Source: Hydrogenophaga sp. (GTDB lineage: Bacteria; Pseudomonadota; Gammaproteobacteria; Burkholderiales; Burkholderiaceae_C). From it: 64,000 bases of DNA. This document shows, piece by piece, positions 3,764 through 60,234 of this stretch. The position numbers and the translations under genes were made by a program. Position 1 is the first letter of the stretch; each line of letters opens with the position of its first letter. A model generated the notes under the pieces. The model did no database searches, was not told the DNA's origin, and saw only the letters and a program-made list of their open reading frames with translations. The DNA is taken from NCBI RefSeq assembly GCF_030373225.1, contig NZ_JAUCZG010000014.1:1-64000 (forward strand), written 5' to 3'.

Positions 3764-3862
3764 TCGCCCAGGGATGTCGTGGAACCGGCTTTGCCGGGCC
3801 ACAGACATCGCCCCCTGGAGGGGGGATGCGGCTACACGCAGTGAGCAAGCAACGGGGGGGAG
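3764..3862 (-). repeat. GC-rich dyad repeat, intergenic copy (livG-livH), minus orientation
   Basis: A copy of the repeat family seen throughout the window. It carries the hairpin CCGGCTTTGCCGG and a CCCCCTGGAGGGGGG hairpin, in the orientation opposite to the livK-livF and livF-paaK copies. It fills almost the whole gap between livG and livH. Confidence 0.75.
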
Positions 3863-7363: not shown

Positions 7364-7445
7364 ACCCACCCCCGCCGCGCTTCGCGCGACCCCCTCCAGG
7401 GGGCGACACTTGCGGCCCGGCAAAGCCGGTTCCGCGGTGTCCCTT
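7364..7445 (+). repeat. GC-rich dyad repeat, intergenic copy (livK-livF)
   Basis: Three consecutive hairpins, CGCGC/GCGCG, CCCCCTCCAGGGGG and CCGGCAAAGCCGG, followed by the TTCCGCGGTGTC tail shared with copies at 8361 and 10879. It lies between the receptor and livF genes of the operon. Confidence 0.75.
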
Positions 7446-8360: not shown

Positions 8361-8437
8361 CCCCCCCGCGCCTTCGGCGCGTCACCCCCTCGAGGGGGCA
8401 ACACCTGCGGACCGGCAAAGCCGGATCTGCGGTGTTT
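8361..8437 (+). repeat. GC-rich dyad repeat, intergenic copy (livF-paaK-like)
   Basis: Same family: GCGCCTTCGGCGC, CCCCCTCGAGGGGG and CCGGCAAAGCCGG hairpins. The frame of the next gene is open through the whole repeat back into livF, so no stop codon separates them. Confidence 0.75.
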
Positions 8438-10868: not shown

Positions 10869-10878
10869 ACGGCCGAAC

Positions 10879-10953
10879 ACCCCTGCGGCGCTCTGCGCCG
10901 TCCCCTCGAGGGGACGATGCCTGTGGCCCGGCAAAGCCGGTTCCACGGCATCC
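10879..10953 (+). repeat. GC-rich dyad repeat, intergenic copy
   Basis: GGCGCTCTGCGCC, CCCCTCGAGGGG and CCGGCAAAGCCGG hairpins with the TTCCACGGCATCC tail. It lies between the first Bug gene and the small conserved gene. Confidence 0.75.
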
Positions 10954-12364: not shown

Positions 12365-12583
12365 CCCCCACGCTCCGCCGCGCTTCGCGCGACCCCCTGA
12401 AAGGGGGCGATGCCTGCGGCCCGGCGGAGCCGGTTCCGTGGCATCTCTTGGTGAAGGCATCGCGCCCCGGCGCGCGTGTCCCAAGCCAGGGACACCGCGG
12501 GTCCGGCTCCGCCGGCCCCAGGTGTCGCCCCCCTCTCGCCGCAGGCGAGAGAGGGGGGTGGCGCCGCAGGCGACGCGGGGGGT
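12365..12583. repeat. Inverted pair of GC-rich dyad repeats between convergent genes
   Basis: Two copies face each other. 12365-12447 (plus) begins CCCCCACGCTCC and holds CGCGCTTCGCGCG, CCCCCTGAAAGGGGG and CCGGCGGAGCCGG. 12486-12583 (minus) holds the mirror set with an extended CCCCCCTCTCGCC..GGCGAGAGAGGGGGG stem. They fill the gap between the Bug gene and the DUF1840 gene and may terminate both transcripts. Confidence 0.75.
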
Positions 12584-13038: not shown

Positions 13039-15657
13039 ATGAACACTCCAGACTCGCCTCTCCAACGGATCCTGTGCATTGGTGGCGGCCCGGCGGGGCT
13101 GTATTTCGCGCTGCTGATGAAGCGCCGCGATCCGTCTCTCACGGTCACCGTGGTCGAGCGCAACCGCCCGTTCGACACCTTCGGCTGGGGCGTGGTGTTC
13201 TCCGACCAGACCCTGGGCAATCTGCAGGCCGCCGACCCCGAGAGCGCGCAGCTGATCGGCGACGCCTTCAACCACTGGGACGACATCGAGGTCTTCTACA
13301 AGGGCGGCCGCGTGCGCTCGGGCGGACATGGTTTTTGCGGCATCGGACGCAAGAAGCTGCTCAACATCCTGCAGGAACGCTGCCTGGCGCTGGGCGTCAA
13401 CCTGGTCTTCGAGACCGATGTGGCAGACGACCAGGCGCTGGCTGCGCAGTACGACGCAGACCTGGTGATCGCCAGTGACGGCCTCAACAGCCGCATTCGC
13501 ACCCGCTACGCCGACACCTTCCAGCCCGACATCGACACCCGCGAATGCCGCTTTGTCTGGCTCGGCACAAAAAAGACCTTCGACGCCTTCACCTTCGACT
13601 TCGTGCAGACCGAACACGGCTGGTTCCAGGCGCACGCCTACAAGTTCGACAGCGACACATCGACCTTCATCGTGGAGACGCCCGAAGCGGTGTGGAAGGC
13701 CCACGGCATCGACCGGATGGATCAGGCCGAAGGCGTGGCGTTCTGCGAAAGGCTTTTTGCCGACCGGCTGGAAGGCCACGCCCTCATCAGCAATGCGCAG
13801 CATCTGCGGGGCTCGGCCAACTGGATCCGCTTTCCGCGCGTGATCTGCAAGACATGGGTGCACCGGGTTGACATTCCTGACCCCCACGCTCCACCGCTGC
13901 GCGGGTCGCTGCCCCCCGAGGGGGCTGATCCGGCTTGGGGCGGCCCGGCGCCGGATCGCGCGGCAAAGCGCATACCAGTGGTGCTCATGGGAGACGCCGC
14001 CCACACCGCGCACTTCTCCATCGGCAGCGGCACCAAGCTCGCACTGGAAGACGCGATCGACCTGGCCAACGAATTCACGCGCCACGCGAATGCCGATGTG
14101 GACGAAGTGCTGCGTGGCTACGAAGCACGCCGAAGTGTCGAGGTGCTCAAGATCCAGAATGCCGCGCGCAACTCGACCGAGTGGTTCGAGAACGTGGAGC
14201 GCTACAGCGGCATGGAGGTGGAGCAGTTCGCCTACTCGCTGCTCACGCGCAGCCAGCGCATCAGCCATGAAAACCTGCGCCTGCGCGATGCGGGTTGGCT
14301 CGAAGGCTACGAGTCGTGGCTGGCGCGTTTCAGCCCTGGCGCAGCGGCGCAGCGTGGGGGCGAGAACGATCCGGCGCCGGGCCGCCCCAAGCCGGATCAG
14401 CCCCCCCGGGGGGCAGCGACCCGCGCAGCGGCGCAGCGTGGGGGCGAGAACGATCCGGCGCCGGGCCGCCCCAAGCCGGATCAGCCCCCCCGGGGGGCAG
14501 CGACCCGCGCAGCGGCGGAGCGTGGGGGCCAACACCCCACACCGCCGATGCTGCTGCCGCTCACGGTGCGCGGACTGACGCTGAAAAACCGCATCGTGGT
14601 CTCGCCCATGGCGCAGTACAGCGCGGTGGACGGGGTGGTGGGCGACTACCACCTGGTGCACCTGGGCGCGCGCGCGCTCGGTGGTGCGGCGCTGGTGATG
14701 GTGGAGATGACCAGCCCCACGCCGGAGGGTCGCATCACACCCGGCTGCCCCGGCTTGTGGAACGACGCGCAGCAAGCCGGCTTCCAGCGCATCGTGGACT
14801 TCAGCCACAGCCAGCAGGCGCACATCGGCATCCAGCTCGGCCACAGCGGGCCCAAGGGTTCCACACAGCTCGGCTGGGAACGCATCGACGAGCCGCTGGC
14901 GACCGGCAACTGGCCCGTGATCTCGGCCAGCGCCGTGCCGTATGGCGAGCAGAACCAGGTGCCCCGCGCCATGACCCGCGCCGACATGGACGCGCTCACC
15001 GCCGCCTTCGTCGAGTCGACGAAGCGTGCCGCTGCCGCCGGCTTCGACTGGCTTGAATTGCACGCGGCCCACGGCTACCTGCTCTCGGCCTTCATCTGCC
15101 CGCTGACCAACCAACGCACCGACGAATACGGCGGCACGCTGGCCAACCGCTGCCGCTATCCGCTGGAGGTGTTCACCGCGGTGCGCGCCGCGTGGCCGGC
15201 GGATCGGCCCATGAGCGTGCGCATCTCGGCGCACGACTGGGCGCCCGGCGGCAACACCCCGGACGACGCAGTGGCGATGGCGCGGCTGTTCAAGGCCGCC
15301 GGCTGCGACGTGATCGACGTGTCCTCTGGCCAGACCACGCGCGCGGCCAAGCCGGTGTACGGCCGCATGTACCAGACACCGTTCGCCGACCGGGTGCGCA
15401 ACGAGGCCGGCATCCTCACCATGGCGGTGGGTGCGATCAGCGAAGCCGACCACGCCAACAGCATCATCGCCGCCGGCCGCGCCGACCTCTGCGCCGTGGC
15501 CCGCCCCCACCTGGCCAACCCGGCCTGGACACTGCACGAGGCCGCCAGGCTGCAGACACGCGCCCTGCAATGGCCACGCCCCTACGAAAGCGGGCGGGAC
15601 CAGCTCTACCGCGAAACGGCCCGATTGAACGCCCTCAACATCAGCGACAAGCCATGA
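13039..15657 (+). CDS. Fused flavin monooxygenase/OYE-type reductase acting on an aryl-CoA (2-aminobenzoyl-CoA monooxygenase/reductase or salicylyl-CoA 5-hydroxylase type)
   Basis: An 872-residue cytoplasmic fusion. The N-terminal half (about 1-430) is a class A FAD monooxygenase with [16 protein letters not shown], the FAD/NADPH DG-type region and [22 protein letters not shown]. The C-terminal half (about 510-872) is an Old Yellow Enzyme-type reductase with [40 protein letters not shown] and the [11 protein letters not shown] end. The known fusion is anthraniloyl-CoA monooxygenase/reductase of Azoarcus, which hydroxylates and reduces the ring; public annotation often says salicylyl-CoA 5-hydroxylase. 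The RidA and aryl-CoA ligase genes favour an amino-substituted substrate. Roughly 85 residues come from in-frame GC-rich repeats (about 281-307 and 434-497); without them the length would be about 787, close to what I recall for the family. Confidence 0.87.
13881..13958 (-). repeat. GC-rich dyad repeat inserted in frame in the monooxygenase domain (reverse orientation)
   Basis: This begins CCCCCACGCTCC, like the intergenic copy at 12365, and matches the reverse complement of the units at 14339 almost base for base. It is read as a Pro/Gly/Ala-rich stretch ([20 protein letters not shown]) just before the conserved [13 protein letters not shown] motif, probably a surface loop. Confidence 0.85.
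14339..14529 (+). repeat. Tandem GC-rich dyad repeats forming the interdomain linker of the fusion enzyme
   Basis: Two complete 84 bp units (14339-14422 and 14423-14506) plus a 23 bp partial third. 84 bp is exactly 28 codons, so the frame is kept. Each unit encodes [20 protein letters not shown] followed by PPRGAATR, lying between the monooxygenase and the OYE domain. Confidence 0.9.
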
Positions 15658-16334
15658 ACATCAACGGAGCAAGCAAGAGCCCGAGCCAGCCGCCGGGCCG
15701 CCCCAAGGCAGGCTCAGCCCCCTCGGGGGGCAGCGGACCTCGCGAAGCGGGGGAGCGTGGGGGCTCCGAGGCCCAGCCGCCGGGCCGCCCCAAGGCAGGC
15801 TCAGCCCCCCCGGGGGGCAGCGGACCTCGCGAAGCGGGGGAGCGTGGGGGCCTGCTGGATCTGGAAGCAAGGGCCCACAGCGAACACGCACAGGAACTGC
15901 GTTTGTGGCTGCGCCTGCTCACCTGCTCGCAGCTGATCGAAAAACGCGTGCGCACCGGCCTGCGCGAGCAGTTCGACACCACGCTGCCGCGCTTCGACCT
16001 CATGGCCCAGCTGGAGCGCCACCCCGAGGGGTTGAAGATGAAGGAGCTGTCGCACCGGCTCATGGTCACCGGTGGCAACGTCACCGGCATCACCGACCAG
16101 CTGGTCAACGAAGGCCTGGTGGAGCGGCTCGATGTGGACGGCGACCGCCGTGCATTTCGCGTGGCGCTGACCGAGCACGGCCGCGCCACCTTTGTCGAGA
16201 TGGCGCGCCAGCACGAACAGTGGATCGTGGACGCCTTCGAAGGTCTGAGTCCGCGCGATCTGGAGAGCCTGCACAAACTGCTGGGCAAGGTGAAGGCCCA
16301 TCAACTCGACATCAATCAGCGCATCGAAGAATGA
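15654..16334 (+). CDS. MarR family transcriptional regulator with repeat-derived N-terminal extension
   Basis: A 226-residue regulator whose last 160 residues are a MarR winged-helix protein: [20 protein letters not shown] dimer helix, [35 protein letters not shown] recognition region and the [15 protein letters not shown] wing. The ATG overlaps the preceding stop (ATGA). Residues 12-66 are two 29-codon repeat units, absent from the MarR fold, so the ancestral N-terminus was probably about ten residues followed by [12 protein letters not shown]. It presumably represses the operon and is released by an aryl-CoA, as in other aryl-CoA MarR systems; that is inference. Confidence 0.88.
15687..15851 (+). 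repeat. Two in-frame GC-rich repeats in the MarR N-terminus
   Basis: Two copies of about 78 bp start at 15687 and 15774 with a period of 87 bp, exactly 29 codons. They share CCGGGCCGCCCCAAG and the CCCCC/GGGGGGCAGCG hairpin with the copies at 14339, but diverge elsewhere. Each encodes [12 protein letters not shown](S/P)GGSGP followed by REAGERGG. Confidence 0.9.
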
Positions 16335-59139: not shown

Positions 59140-59210
59140 GGGATCCCCTTCGCGCTGCGCGCTGCCCCCCCGATGGGGAGCGGTATTCCTTGAGGCGGCC
59201 CGGCGGAAAG

Positions 59211-59218: not shown

Positions 59219-60100
<882 letters not shown>

Positions 60101-60104
<4 letters not shown>

Positions 60105-60230
60105 TCGAAAACCTCCGTGCTGCGCACTGCGGTGCGAGCTTGCTTGGGGCGGCCCGGCGTGGCGCTCATTCAAATACCTCCGTGCTTCGCACTGCGGTGC
60201 GAGCTTGCTTGGGGCGGCCCGGCGCGGCGC

Positions 60231-60234
<4 letters not shown>
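60101..60234 (-). repeat. Tandem 65 bp repeat carrying two coupled 22-codon mini-ORFs between glpT and glpP
   Basis: Two nearly identical 65 bp units. Mini-ORF 1 (60234-60166) starts in the ATGA of the glpT stop and encodes MSAAPGRPKQARTAVRSTEV plus FE. Mini-ORF 2 (60169-60101) starts in the ATGA of the first stop and encodes the same peptide with Thr at position 4. Its stop overlaps the glpP ATG. Mini-ORF 2 and glpP each have GGAGG 6-7 bp upstream. Confidence 0.8.

Follow-up and report, generated by a model that had tools for sequence, protein, structure and literature searches.

A dispersed, hairpin-forming repeat in frame in an operon and other genes of Hydrogenophaga

In-frame repeats in two genes of one operon

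Within the 64,000-nucleotide stretch of Hydrogenophaga sp. DNA considered here (contig NZ_JAUCZG010000014.1, positions 1 to 64,000; hereafter the window), two adjoining genes of one operon carry GC-rich palindromic repeats in frame with their coding sequences. The first gene (13039–15657, forward strand) encodes a bifunctional salicylyl-CoA 5-hydroxylase/oxidoreductase (PRK08255) of 872 residues, a fusion protein that contains the Pfam domains FAD_binding_3 and Oxidored_FMN and scores 1336 bits against NCBIfam NF006101 (cut-off 1078), with residues 10–866 corresponding to positions 2–762 of the 768 in that model. It is host to two insertions: site 1, a single unit in reverse orientation at 13881–13958 (residues 281–307), and site 2, 2.3 tandem units in forward orientation at 14339–14529 (residues 434–497), in the interdomain linker. 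The second gene (15654–16334, forward strand) encodes a MarR-family regulator (Pfam MarR_2/MarR), whose ATG at 15654 shares nucleotides with the fusion gene's stop codon and whose N-terminus carries two further units in forward orientation at 15686–15851. Tandem Repeats Finder (TRF) describes the linker array as an 84-bp unit (28 codons) in 2.3 copies with 99% matches, and the MarR array as an 87-bp unit (29 codons) in 1.9 copies with 98% matches; the 81 nt of 13878–13958 match the complement of the linker unit at 96%, and the open reading frames (ORFs) of both genes are open across their repeats. These results bear out a previous inspection of the letters and their translations (the sequence-only reading), which had proposed the three in-frame repeats and both periods. 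Its estimate that the repeats add about 85 residues to the fusion protein was also right, because the 872 residues compare with 786 (G031) and 785 (G016) in the nearest congeners that have no insert at either site; the 16 alignment rows with both sites empty range from 772 to 797.

Structure prediction of the loops, another suggestion of the sequence-only reading, was made with AlphaFold2 (29 sequences, mean predicted local distance difference test, pLDDT, 73.8; predicted template modelling score 0.65). In the resulting model the site-1 insert lies between the predicted β-strands 274–280 and 309–316, has no secondary structure and is of low confidence, with block means of 52–63, and residues 435–497 at site 2 have a pLDDT under 50. 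Site 1 is accordingly drawn by the model as a β-hairpin turn and site 2 as a disordered linker, both of them predicted to be exposed and tolerated regions, in which the inserts would add flexible protein segments.

Architecture of the repeat unit

The 46 distinct units found in the Hydrogenophaga genome are 72–82 bp long each and contain 82% G+C. When 35 of the 50 units collected outside contig C51 are aligned, a common order emerges, with three successive hairpins followed by a AGCGTGGGGG edge. In the site-2 array (forward strand), stem A (14452–14482) consists of outer arms at 14452–14459 and 14475–14482 and an inner stem at 14463–14465 and 14470–14472; stem B (14484–14498), which is nearly invariant, pairs 14484–14489 with 14493–14498; and stem C (14505–14515), after which the AGCGTGGGGG edge follows, pairs 14505–14508 with 14512–14515, a longer alternative pairing of this region being favoured when the DNA is folded as a single strand. 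The outer arms of stem A covary: changes on both sides of a pair occur in 45 cells of the alignment, all of them in stem A, against 12.4 ± 2.6 after shuffling (0 of 500 shuffles as high), and controls with slid partners give 1–10 such cells. Hairpins B and C hardly vary and therefore give no covariation evidence. Arm and spacer sequences tend to match within an array and to differ between arrays, which suggests that the units multiplied locally in tandem after insertion.

The sequence-only reading had described the repeat as open in both directions. This is so for the frames as they run in the genes, but no special design stands behind it: 16 of the 46 units lack stops in every one of the six frames, where composition-matched shuffled letters would give 18.9, and two reverse frames contain stops in 15 and 13 of the 46. 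Selection for six open frames is thus unsupported by the composition control, and the openness in both directions is a by-product of the 82% G+C.

Dispersal and genomic setting

Searched against its own 4.02-Mb genome, the unit returns 109 BLAST matches (E up to 1), which group into 42 arrays and include near-identical full-length copies on other contigs, beyond what chance would give. The repeat is present in 34 of 35 Hydrogenophaga congeners (own genome not counted). Across a family-wide sample it occurs in 116 of 150 genomes and in 109 of 141 genera (own genome counted), and across an order-wide draw in 11 of 150 genomes, eight of them outside the family; copy numbers from these surveys are lower limits, 15 candidates having been scored per congener and six per genome in the family and order draws. 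Phage records contain no match to the repeat and plasmid records three (Acidovorax, Rhodoferax, Azoarcus), so nothing points to such replicons as carriers, and a phage or plasmid vehicle finds no support. The non-genic arrays that were classified, from this and six other Hydrogenophaga genomes, show a bias towards the 3' ends of genes, since 43 of 44 lie between tandem (26) or convergent (17) genes and one between divergent genes; the second array of locus L034 and the partial copy at 59145–59206 of the window fall outside this count, and L048 stayed unclassified.

The count of copies inside coding sequences that the sequence-only reading had asked for comes to six of 28 assessable arrays with the frame kept, the other 14 of the 42 being cut by contig ends (11) or situated on the probably chimeric contig C51 (three). 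Genes were called from open frame and third-position G+C and then assigned to families. The six genic arrays occupy five unrelated genes, namely the fusion gene (twice) and those for MarR, FdhD, MetX and acetoacetate-CoA ligase, so that three of the six sit in one operon; FdhD contains one unit and MetX three, the third of them shortened, while the array in acetoacetate-CoA ligase amounts to more than two units but fewer than three. MetX scores 636 bits against a curated cut-off of 560, and at the position of its insert an alignment to PDB 2pl5 leaves just seven residues of that chain, from which a tolerated, solvent-exposed region appears probable. In the genic copies that were read, the inserted peptides are of low charge and rich in Pro, Gly and Ala, and the strongly basic, Arg-rich or Cys-containing frames are not among them. 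The phenomenon is larger than first described.

The same acetoacetate-CoA ligase (L050:2–2308, contig C12) apparently also contains, at residues ~393–440, a second and unrelated repeat in frame, with a TTCGACARGCTCAGG core that occurs at 50 sites across the genome (one of them C12:44307–44321) and at none for the reversed control.

Empty, filled and reversed sites in relatives

Alignment with homologues from sister species, as the sequence-only reading had recommended, discloses empty sites, and for this reason, together with the mostly intergenic copies elsewhere, the ancestral linker that this reading had named as its own refutation is ruled out. Site 1 is filled in five of 28 genus rows (G000, G024, G008, G022 with two units, and G002 with a remnant), G004 being unreadable there. 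Site 2 is filled in forward orientation in five of 28 (G000, G013, G001, G023, G032), with a reverse copy in frame in G034, a diverged copy in G029 and an N-filled stretch in G002. Among named organisms, the best homologues of the fusion protein belong mostly to Hydrogenophaga, and two congeners share identical core proteins with Hydrogenophaga sp. MAG_35 and with H. taeniospiralis, the latter having a reverse copy at site 2 of its fusion protein. The filled fusion-gene rows besides G004 and the N-filled G002 are open through the insert with conserved flanking residues, those of G013 and G008 being cut by contig ends. The FdhD site is filled in five of 25 readable rows (G000, G001, G014, G008 with two units, G011 with a remnant), the MetX site in five of 30 (G000, G017, G029, a shortened copy in G018 and one of opposite orientation in G028), and the MarR N-terminus in at least four of 29 (G000, G032, G023, G011), a lower limit. 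At their sites the inserts replace a few codons.

Beyond the genus, Polaromonas has diverged relatives of the repeat at site 2 (L135, 82% identity; L136, 76%) and at site 1 (L140, 78%). In other lineages, L129 and L131 hold another subfamily at site 1, and the site-2 linker of L146 is taken up by a CCCTCTCCC/GGGAGAGGG palindrome, unrelated to the repeat and present as an inverted pair.

Likeness to known repeat systems

The Rickettsia palindromic elements (RPE) were reportedly described by Ogata et al. in 2000 and 2002. They lie in frame in ORFs, with their inserts in solvent-exposed areas, according to two later accounts (PMC10969869, PMC3767692). The sequence-only reading had drawn this parallel, and it stands: both systems are dispersed and structured repeats in frame in unrelated genes, five of them here, where sister species have empty sites; and RPE are reported to comprise several families, with orthologues of some genes holding different families or none at one site. 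The present element differs in its 82% G+C, its three hairpins, its tandem arrays and the absence of a CGTC end tag of the RPE-4/RPE-6 type (found in the terminal 6 nt of 0 of 46 units), as well as in belonging to a genus outside the Rickettsiales, in being patchy between species and in occurring in both orientations at one site.

That in-frame palindromic repeats extend beyond Rickettsia is itself known since 2013, from a report of intragenic GTAG/CGTC repetitive extragenic palindromes (REPs) in Xanthomonas, Thauera, Opitutus and others, with recB of two Xanthomonas carrying a REP at about one site (PMC3733652). As there described, REPs resemble the present element in being palindromic, situated mostly between tandem or convergent genes and sometimes intragenic (PMC3733652). 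They differ in size and architecture (20–40 bp, against 72–82 bp and three hairpins) and in their tags, neither of which is found at the ends of our units, GTAG being absent from all 46 on both strands; nor is the present element flanked by a REP-associated tyrosine transposase (RAYT) at the 20 loci examined. Miniature inverted-repeat transposable elements (MITEs) and small mobile sequences of enterobacteria are likewise small, non-autonomous, intergenic and intragenic and can supply coding sequence (PMC10969869, PMC2759123, PMC2229807). In contrast to MITEs, our units have no terminal inverted repeats, and no target-site duplication is recognisable in their diverged flanks. Mycobacterial interspersed repetitive unit/variable-number tandem repeat (MIRU/VNTR) loci are dispersed head-to-tail arrays with a variable number of units, a property that they have in common with the present arrays, which differ in their multiple hairpins, their covarying arms and their occurrence in both orientations inside enzyme loops. 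With the folded attC sites of integrons, arm covariation is the single resemblance noted. A literature search covering titles and the openings of abstracts, with most subscription journals outside it, found no description of in-frame palindromes in Comamonadaceae.

A probable mobile repeat retained in tolerant loops

The explanation that we hold to be probable is that of a palindromic repeat, mobile but non-autonomous, which persists wherever a protein can accommodate a loop of Pro, Gly and Ala. The element would be a small, hairpin-forming and dispersed one, REP- or MITE-like and widespread in the family, inserting as a unit of ~78–82 bp with three successive hairpins and subsequently multiplying in place to give head-to-tail arrays with common arm and spacer sequences. 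The majority of copies would settle between tandem or convergent genes and some would enter genes, where purifying selection, acting as a filter on frame and loop, would leave those that are in frame and in exposed loops, presumably translated as low-charge, flexible segments rich in Pro, Gly and Ala. Because survival would be limited to such copies, a few tolerant loops would be struck again in different species, in either orientation and with varying unit numbers, later decaying to remnants.

Several results weigh against this explanation. No candidate mobilising enzyme is tied to the repeat: a RAYT-like Y1 transposase occurs in 30 of 35 Hydrogenophaga genomes (own included; a single copy in 28 of them, two copies in the other two), and the repeat is found beside none of the 20 RAYT-like loci examined (L107–L126, of 32 matches; flanks of up to 1.5 kb, E 0.01), so that RAYT as mobiliser is unsupported; G033, moreover, has a RAYT-like transposase gene and lacks the repeat. 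Terminal inverted repeats are absent, with at most four of eight terminal positions matching in the 46 units, and inspection by eye showed no target-site duplication around the inserts in the fusion gene, FdhD and MetX, whose flanks have diverged. When pairs are counted instead of cells, five show double-sided change against 3.9 in shuffles (41 of 500 shuffles), weakly above expectation, and in hairpin energy four single units do not surpass their shuffles (z −1.2 to +0.3), leaving an unusual folding energy unsupported. Unit spacing is divisible by three in all four multi-unit genic arrays (84, 87, 84 and 84, the acetoacetate-CoA ligase value being read off BLAST matches and the shortened last MetX unit giving 76) against nine of 21 others, for which a one-sided hypergeometric test, calculated by hand, yields p ~0.06 and thus weak support for frame selection; an earlier comparison with arrays picked by eye had given four of 12 others and p 0.038. 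In six other Hydrogenophaga genomes, two of 27 distinct sampled arrays are genic, both in this same fusion gene, in a sample that consists of the best matches to the fusion gene's own unit, is thereby biased, and omits the genic copies at site 1 of G024 and in FdhD of G001. Finally, FdhD of the present genome falls under the NCBIfam cut-offs, yet lies far over Pfam's, and the fusion gene of G004 (L091) is out of frame at a reverse site-2 copy and at one repeat-free place.

As regards the route of mobility, a RAYT-like transposase acting in trans is possible. A bolder version of the explanation, which we put forward tentatively and consider doubtful as it stands, would see in the repeat a family-wide element recognised by its structure, inserted as folded single-stranded DNA and amplifying in place, a recurrent natural linker mutagen that lengthens the same loops (MetX, FdhD, salicylyl-CoA hydroxylase) in parallel across species. 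On this version, recognition as a folded strand would be the reason for the covarying arms, the lack of terminal inverted repeats and the two orientations, all of which fit it.

Alternative readings

Unlikely, in our view, is a history in which each site received one old insertion and the present pattern arose by recurrent loss, by gene conversion and inversion, and by filled alleles passing between species. The remnants at site 1 of G002, in FdhD of G011 and in MetX of G018 are in its favour, as is the similar RR(V/I)P that follows the site-1 inserts of several lineages. On a quick core-protein tree of 47 rows with insert columns removed and 16 weak forks, at least seven changes are required at site 1 and at least seven at site 2, figures that cannot separate gain from loss or exchange and so leave room for such a history; the tree comprises 27 G rows and 20 of 80 named loci (G004, G037, G045, L143, L147, L149 and L150–L206 are left out), and its site-2 figure leaves G002 and G008 uncounted and takes in L137 as a weak match and L146, with its unrelated palindrome, as 'other'. 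Against this history, however, the majority of congeners, like the Polaromonas and Cupriavidus rows shown, have a clean site-1 turn of 7–11 residues, a state to which loss would seldom lead back. In two genes, moreover, one site is occupied in opposite orientations (site 2 of the fusion gene, and MetX), and the sites of other lineages hold diverged relatives (Polaromonas), another subfamily (L129, L131) or, in L146, an unrelated palindrome. The opposite orientations and the clean empty sites of the outgroups together favour repeated insertion, and the filled sites would then reflect independent insertions, as opposed to an exchange of filled alleles.

Rather improbable is the proposal that the inserted peptides are adaptive, serving as linkers of variable unit number to adjust domain spacing or regulation, and for that reason favoured in this operon. 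The concentration of half of the genic arrays in the operon is in line with it, as are the differences among species in the unit number of the linker and of the MarR N-terminus and the low-charge frames in which the genic copies are read, but tolerance accounts equally well for this choice of frame. Furthermore, the remaining genic sites are in genes unrelated to the operon (MetX, FdhD, acetoacetate-CoA ligase), most congeners lack the inserts, and no peptide sequence is conserved, since frames and orientations vary at one site.

We give very little credence to the idea that the genes with repeats are pseudogenes in decay, or that the segments are untranslated; the broken fusion gene of G004 with its site-2 copy, the low NCBIfam score of FdhD and a downstream start that could skip the MarR extension agree with it, but the filled fusion-gene rows otherwise stay open with conserved flanks, and the fusion protein and MetX exceed their curated cut-offs.

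Assembly quality deserves separate mention, because contig C51 (L066) repeats the fusion-gene segment of contig C14 from array to array with other unit numbers. All 16 differences between C51 and C14 are inside arrays, the unique DNA between them being identical, and the right part of C51 is 99.98% identical to C49 over 5.1 kb; a further region joined in C51 presumably contains a gene of the short-chain dehydrogenase/reductase (SDR) type. C51 is likely an assembly chimera that joins regions via repeat arrays, and a true duplication of the operon segment is less likely, given that the differences are confined to arrays and C49 is nearly identical; these different unit numbers make the unit counts of the assembly uncertain. 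That short-read misjoins at repeats had put the units into the genes is scarcely credible all the same, for even with 11 of 42 arrays cut by contig ends and C51 as a likely chimera, inserts also occur in one- or three-contig assemblies (G024 at site 1; G001 and G023 at site 2), so that the phenomenon itself is no artefact, and both halves of each enzyme stay in frame across the array.

On the same contig, an ORF at L066:5260–7323, which we take to be RecJ-like, contains RTEPVEGL...STGSARTGE and looks like another in-frame repeat insertion.

Significance

In-frame palindromic repeats have so far been mostly an oddity known from Rickettsia and from a small number of REP-rich genomes, and they are now met in a GC-rich, well-sequenced genus, in which empty, filled, reversed, amplified and decayed versions can be seen side by side in several genes, an enzyme of methionine biosynthesis included. 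The comparison within Hydrogenophaga allows direct testing of whether the inserts are tolerated or useful and of how a repeat spreads without an obvious transposase. It also contains a warning for annotation and assembly, as arrays lie at contig ends and Pro/Gly-rich segments may resemble domains.

Neighbouring genes and other repeats in the window

Family searches assign the neighbouring genes to an enoyl-CoA hydratase, an acyl-CoA dehydrogenase and a benzoate-CoA-ligase-like enzyme. An Rfam scan of the window at the gathering threshold has a tRNA as its sole match. The sequence-only reading had noted that the copy at 13881 begins with the same CCCCCACGCTCC as an intergenic copy at 12365–12446 (reverse strand); this edge is really common to both, along with the order of hairpins, but the latter copy belongs to a related sister family and does not match over its whole sequence. 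Further apparently intergenic members of the sister family, alike in edge and hairpin order, lie at 3772–3823 (reverse strand), 7367–7442, 8362–8437 and 10878–10953, besides 12371–12446. Finally, a 65-bp tandem repeat in 2.1 copies at 60094–60234 and the partial copy at 59145–59206 both contain the GGCGGCCCGGC core of the element.

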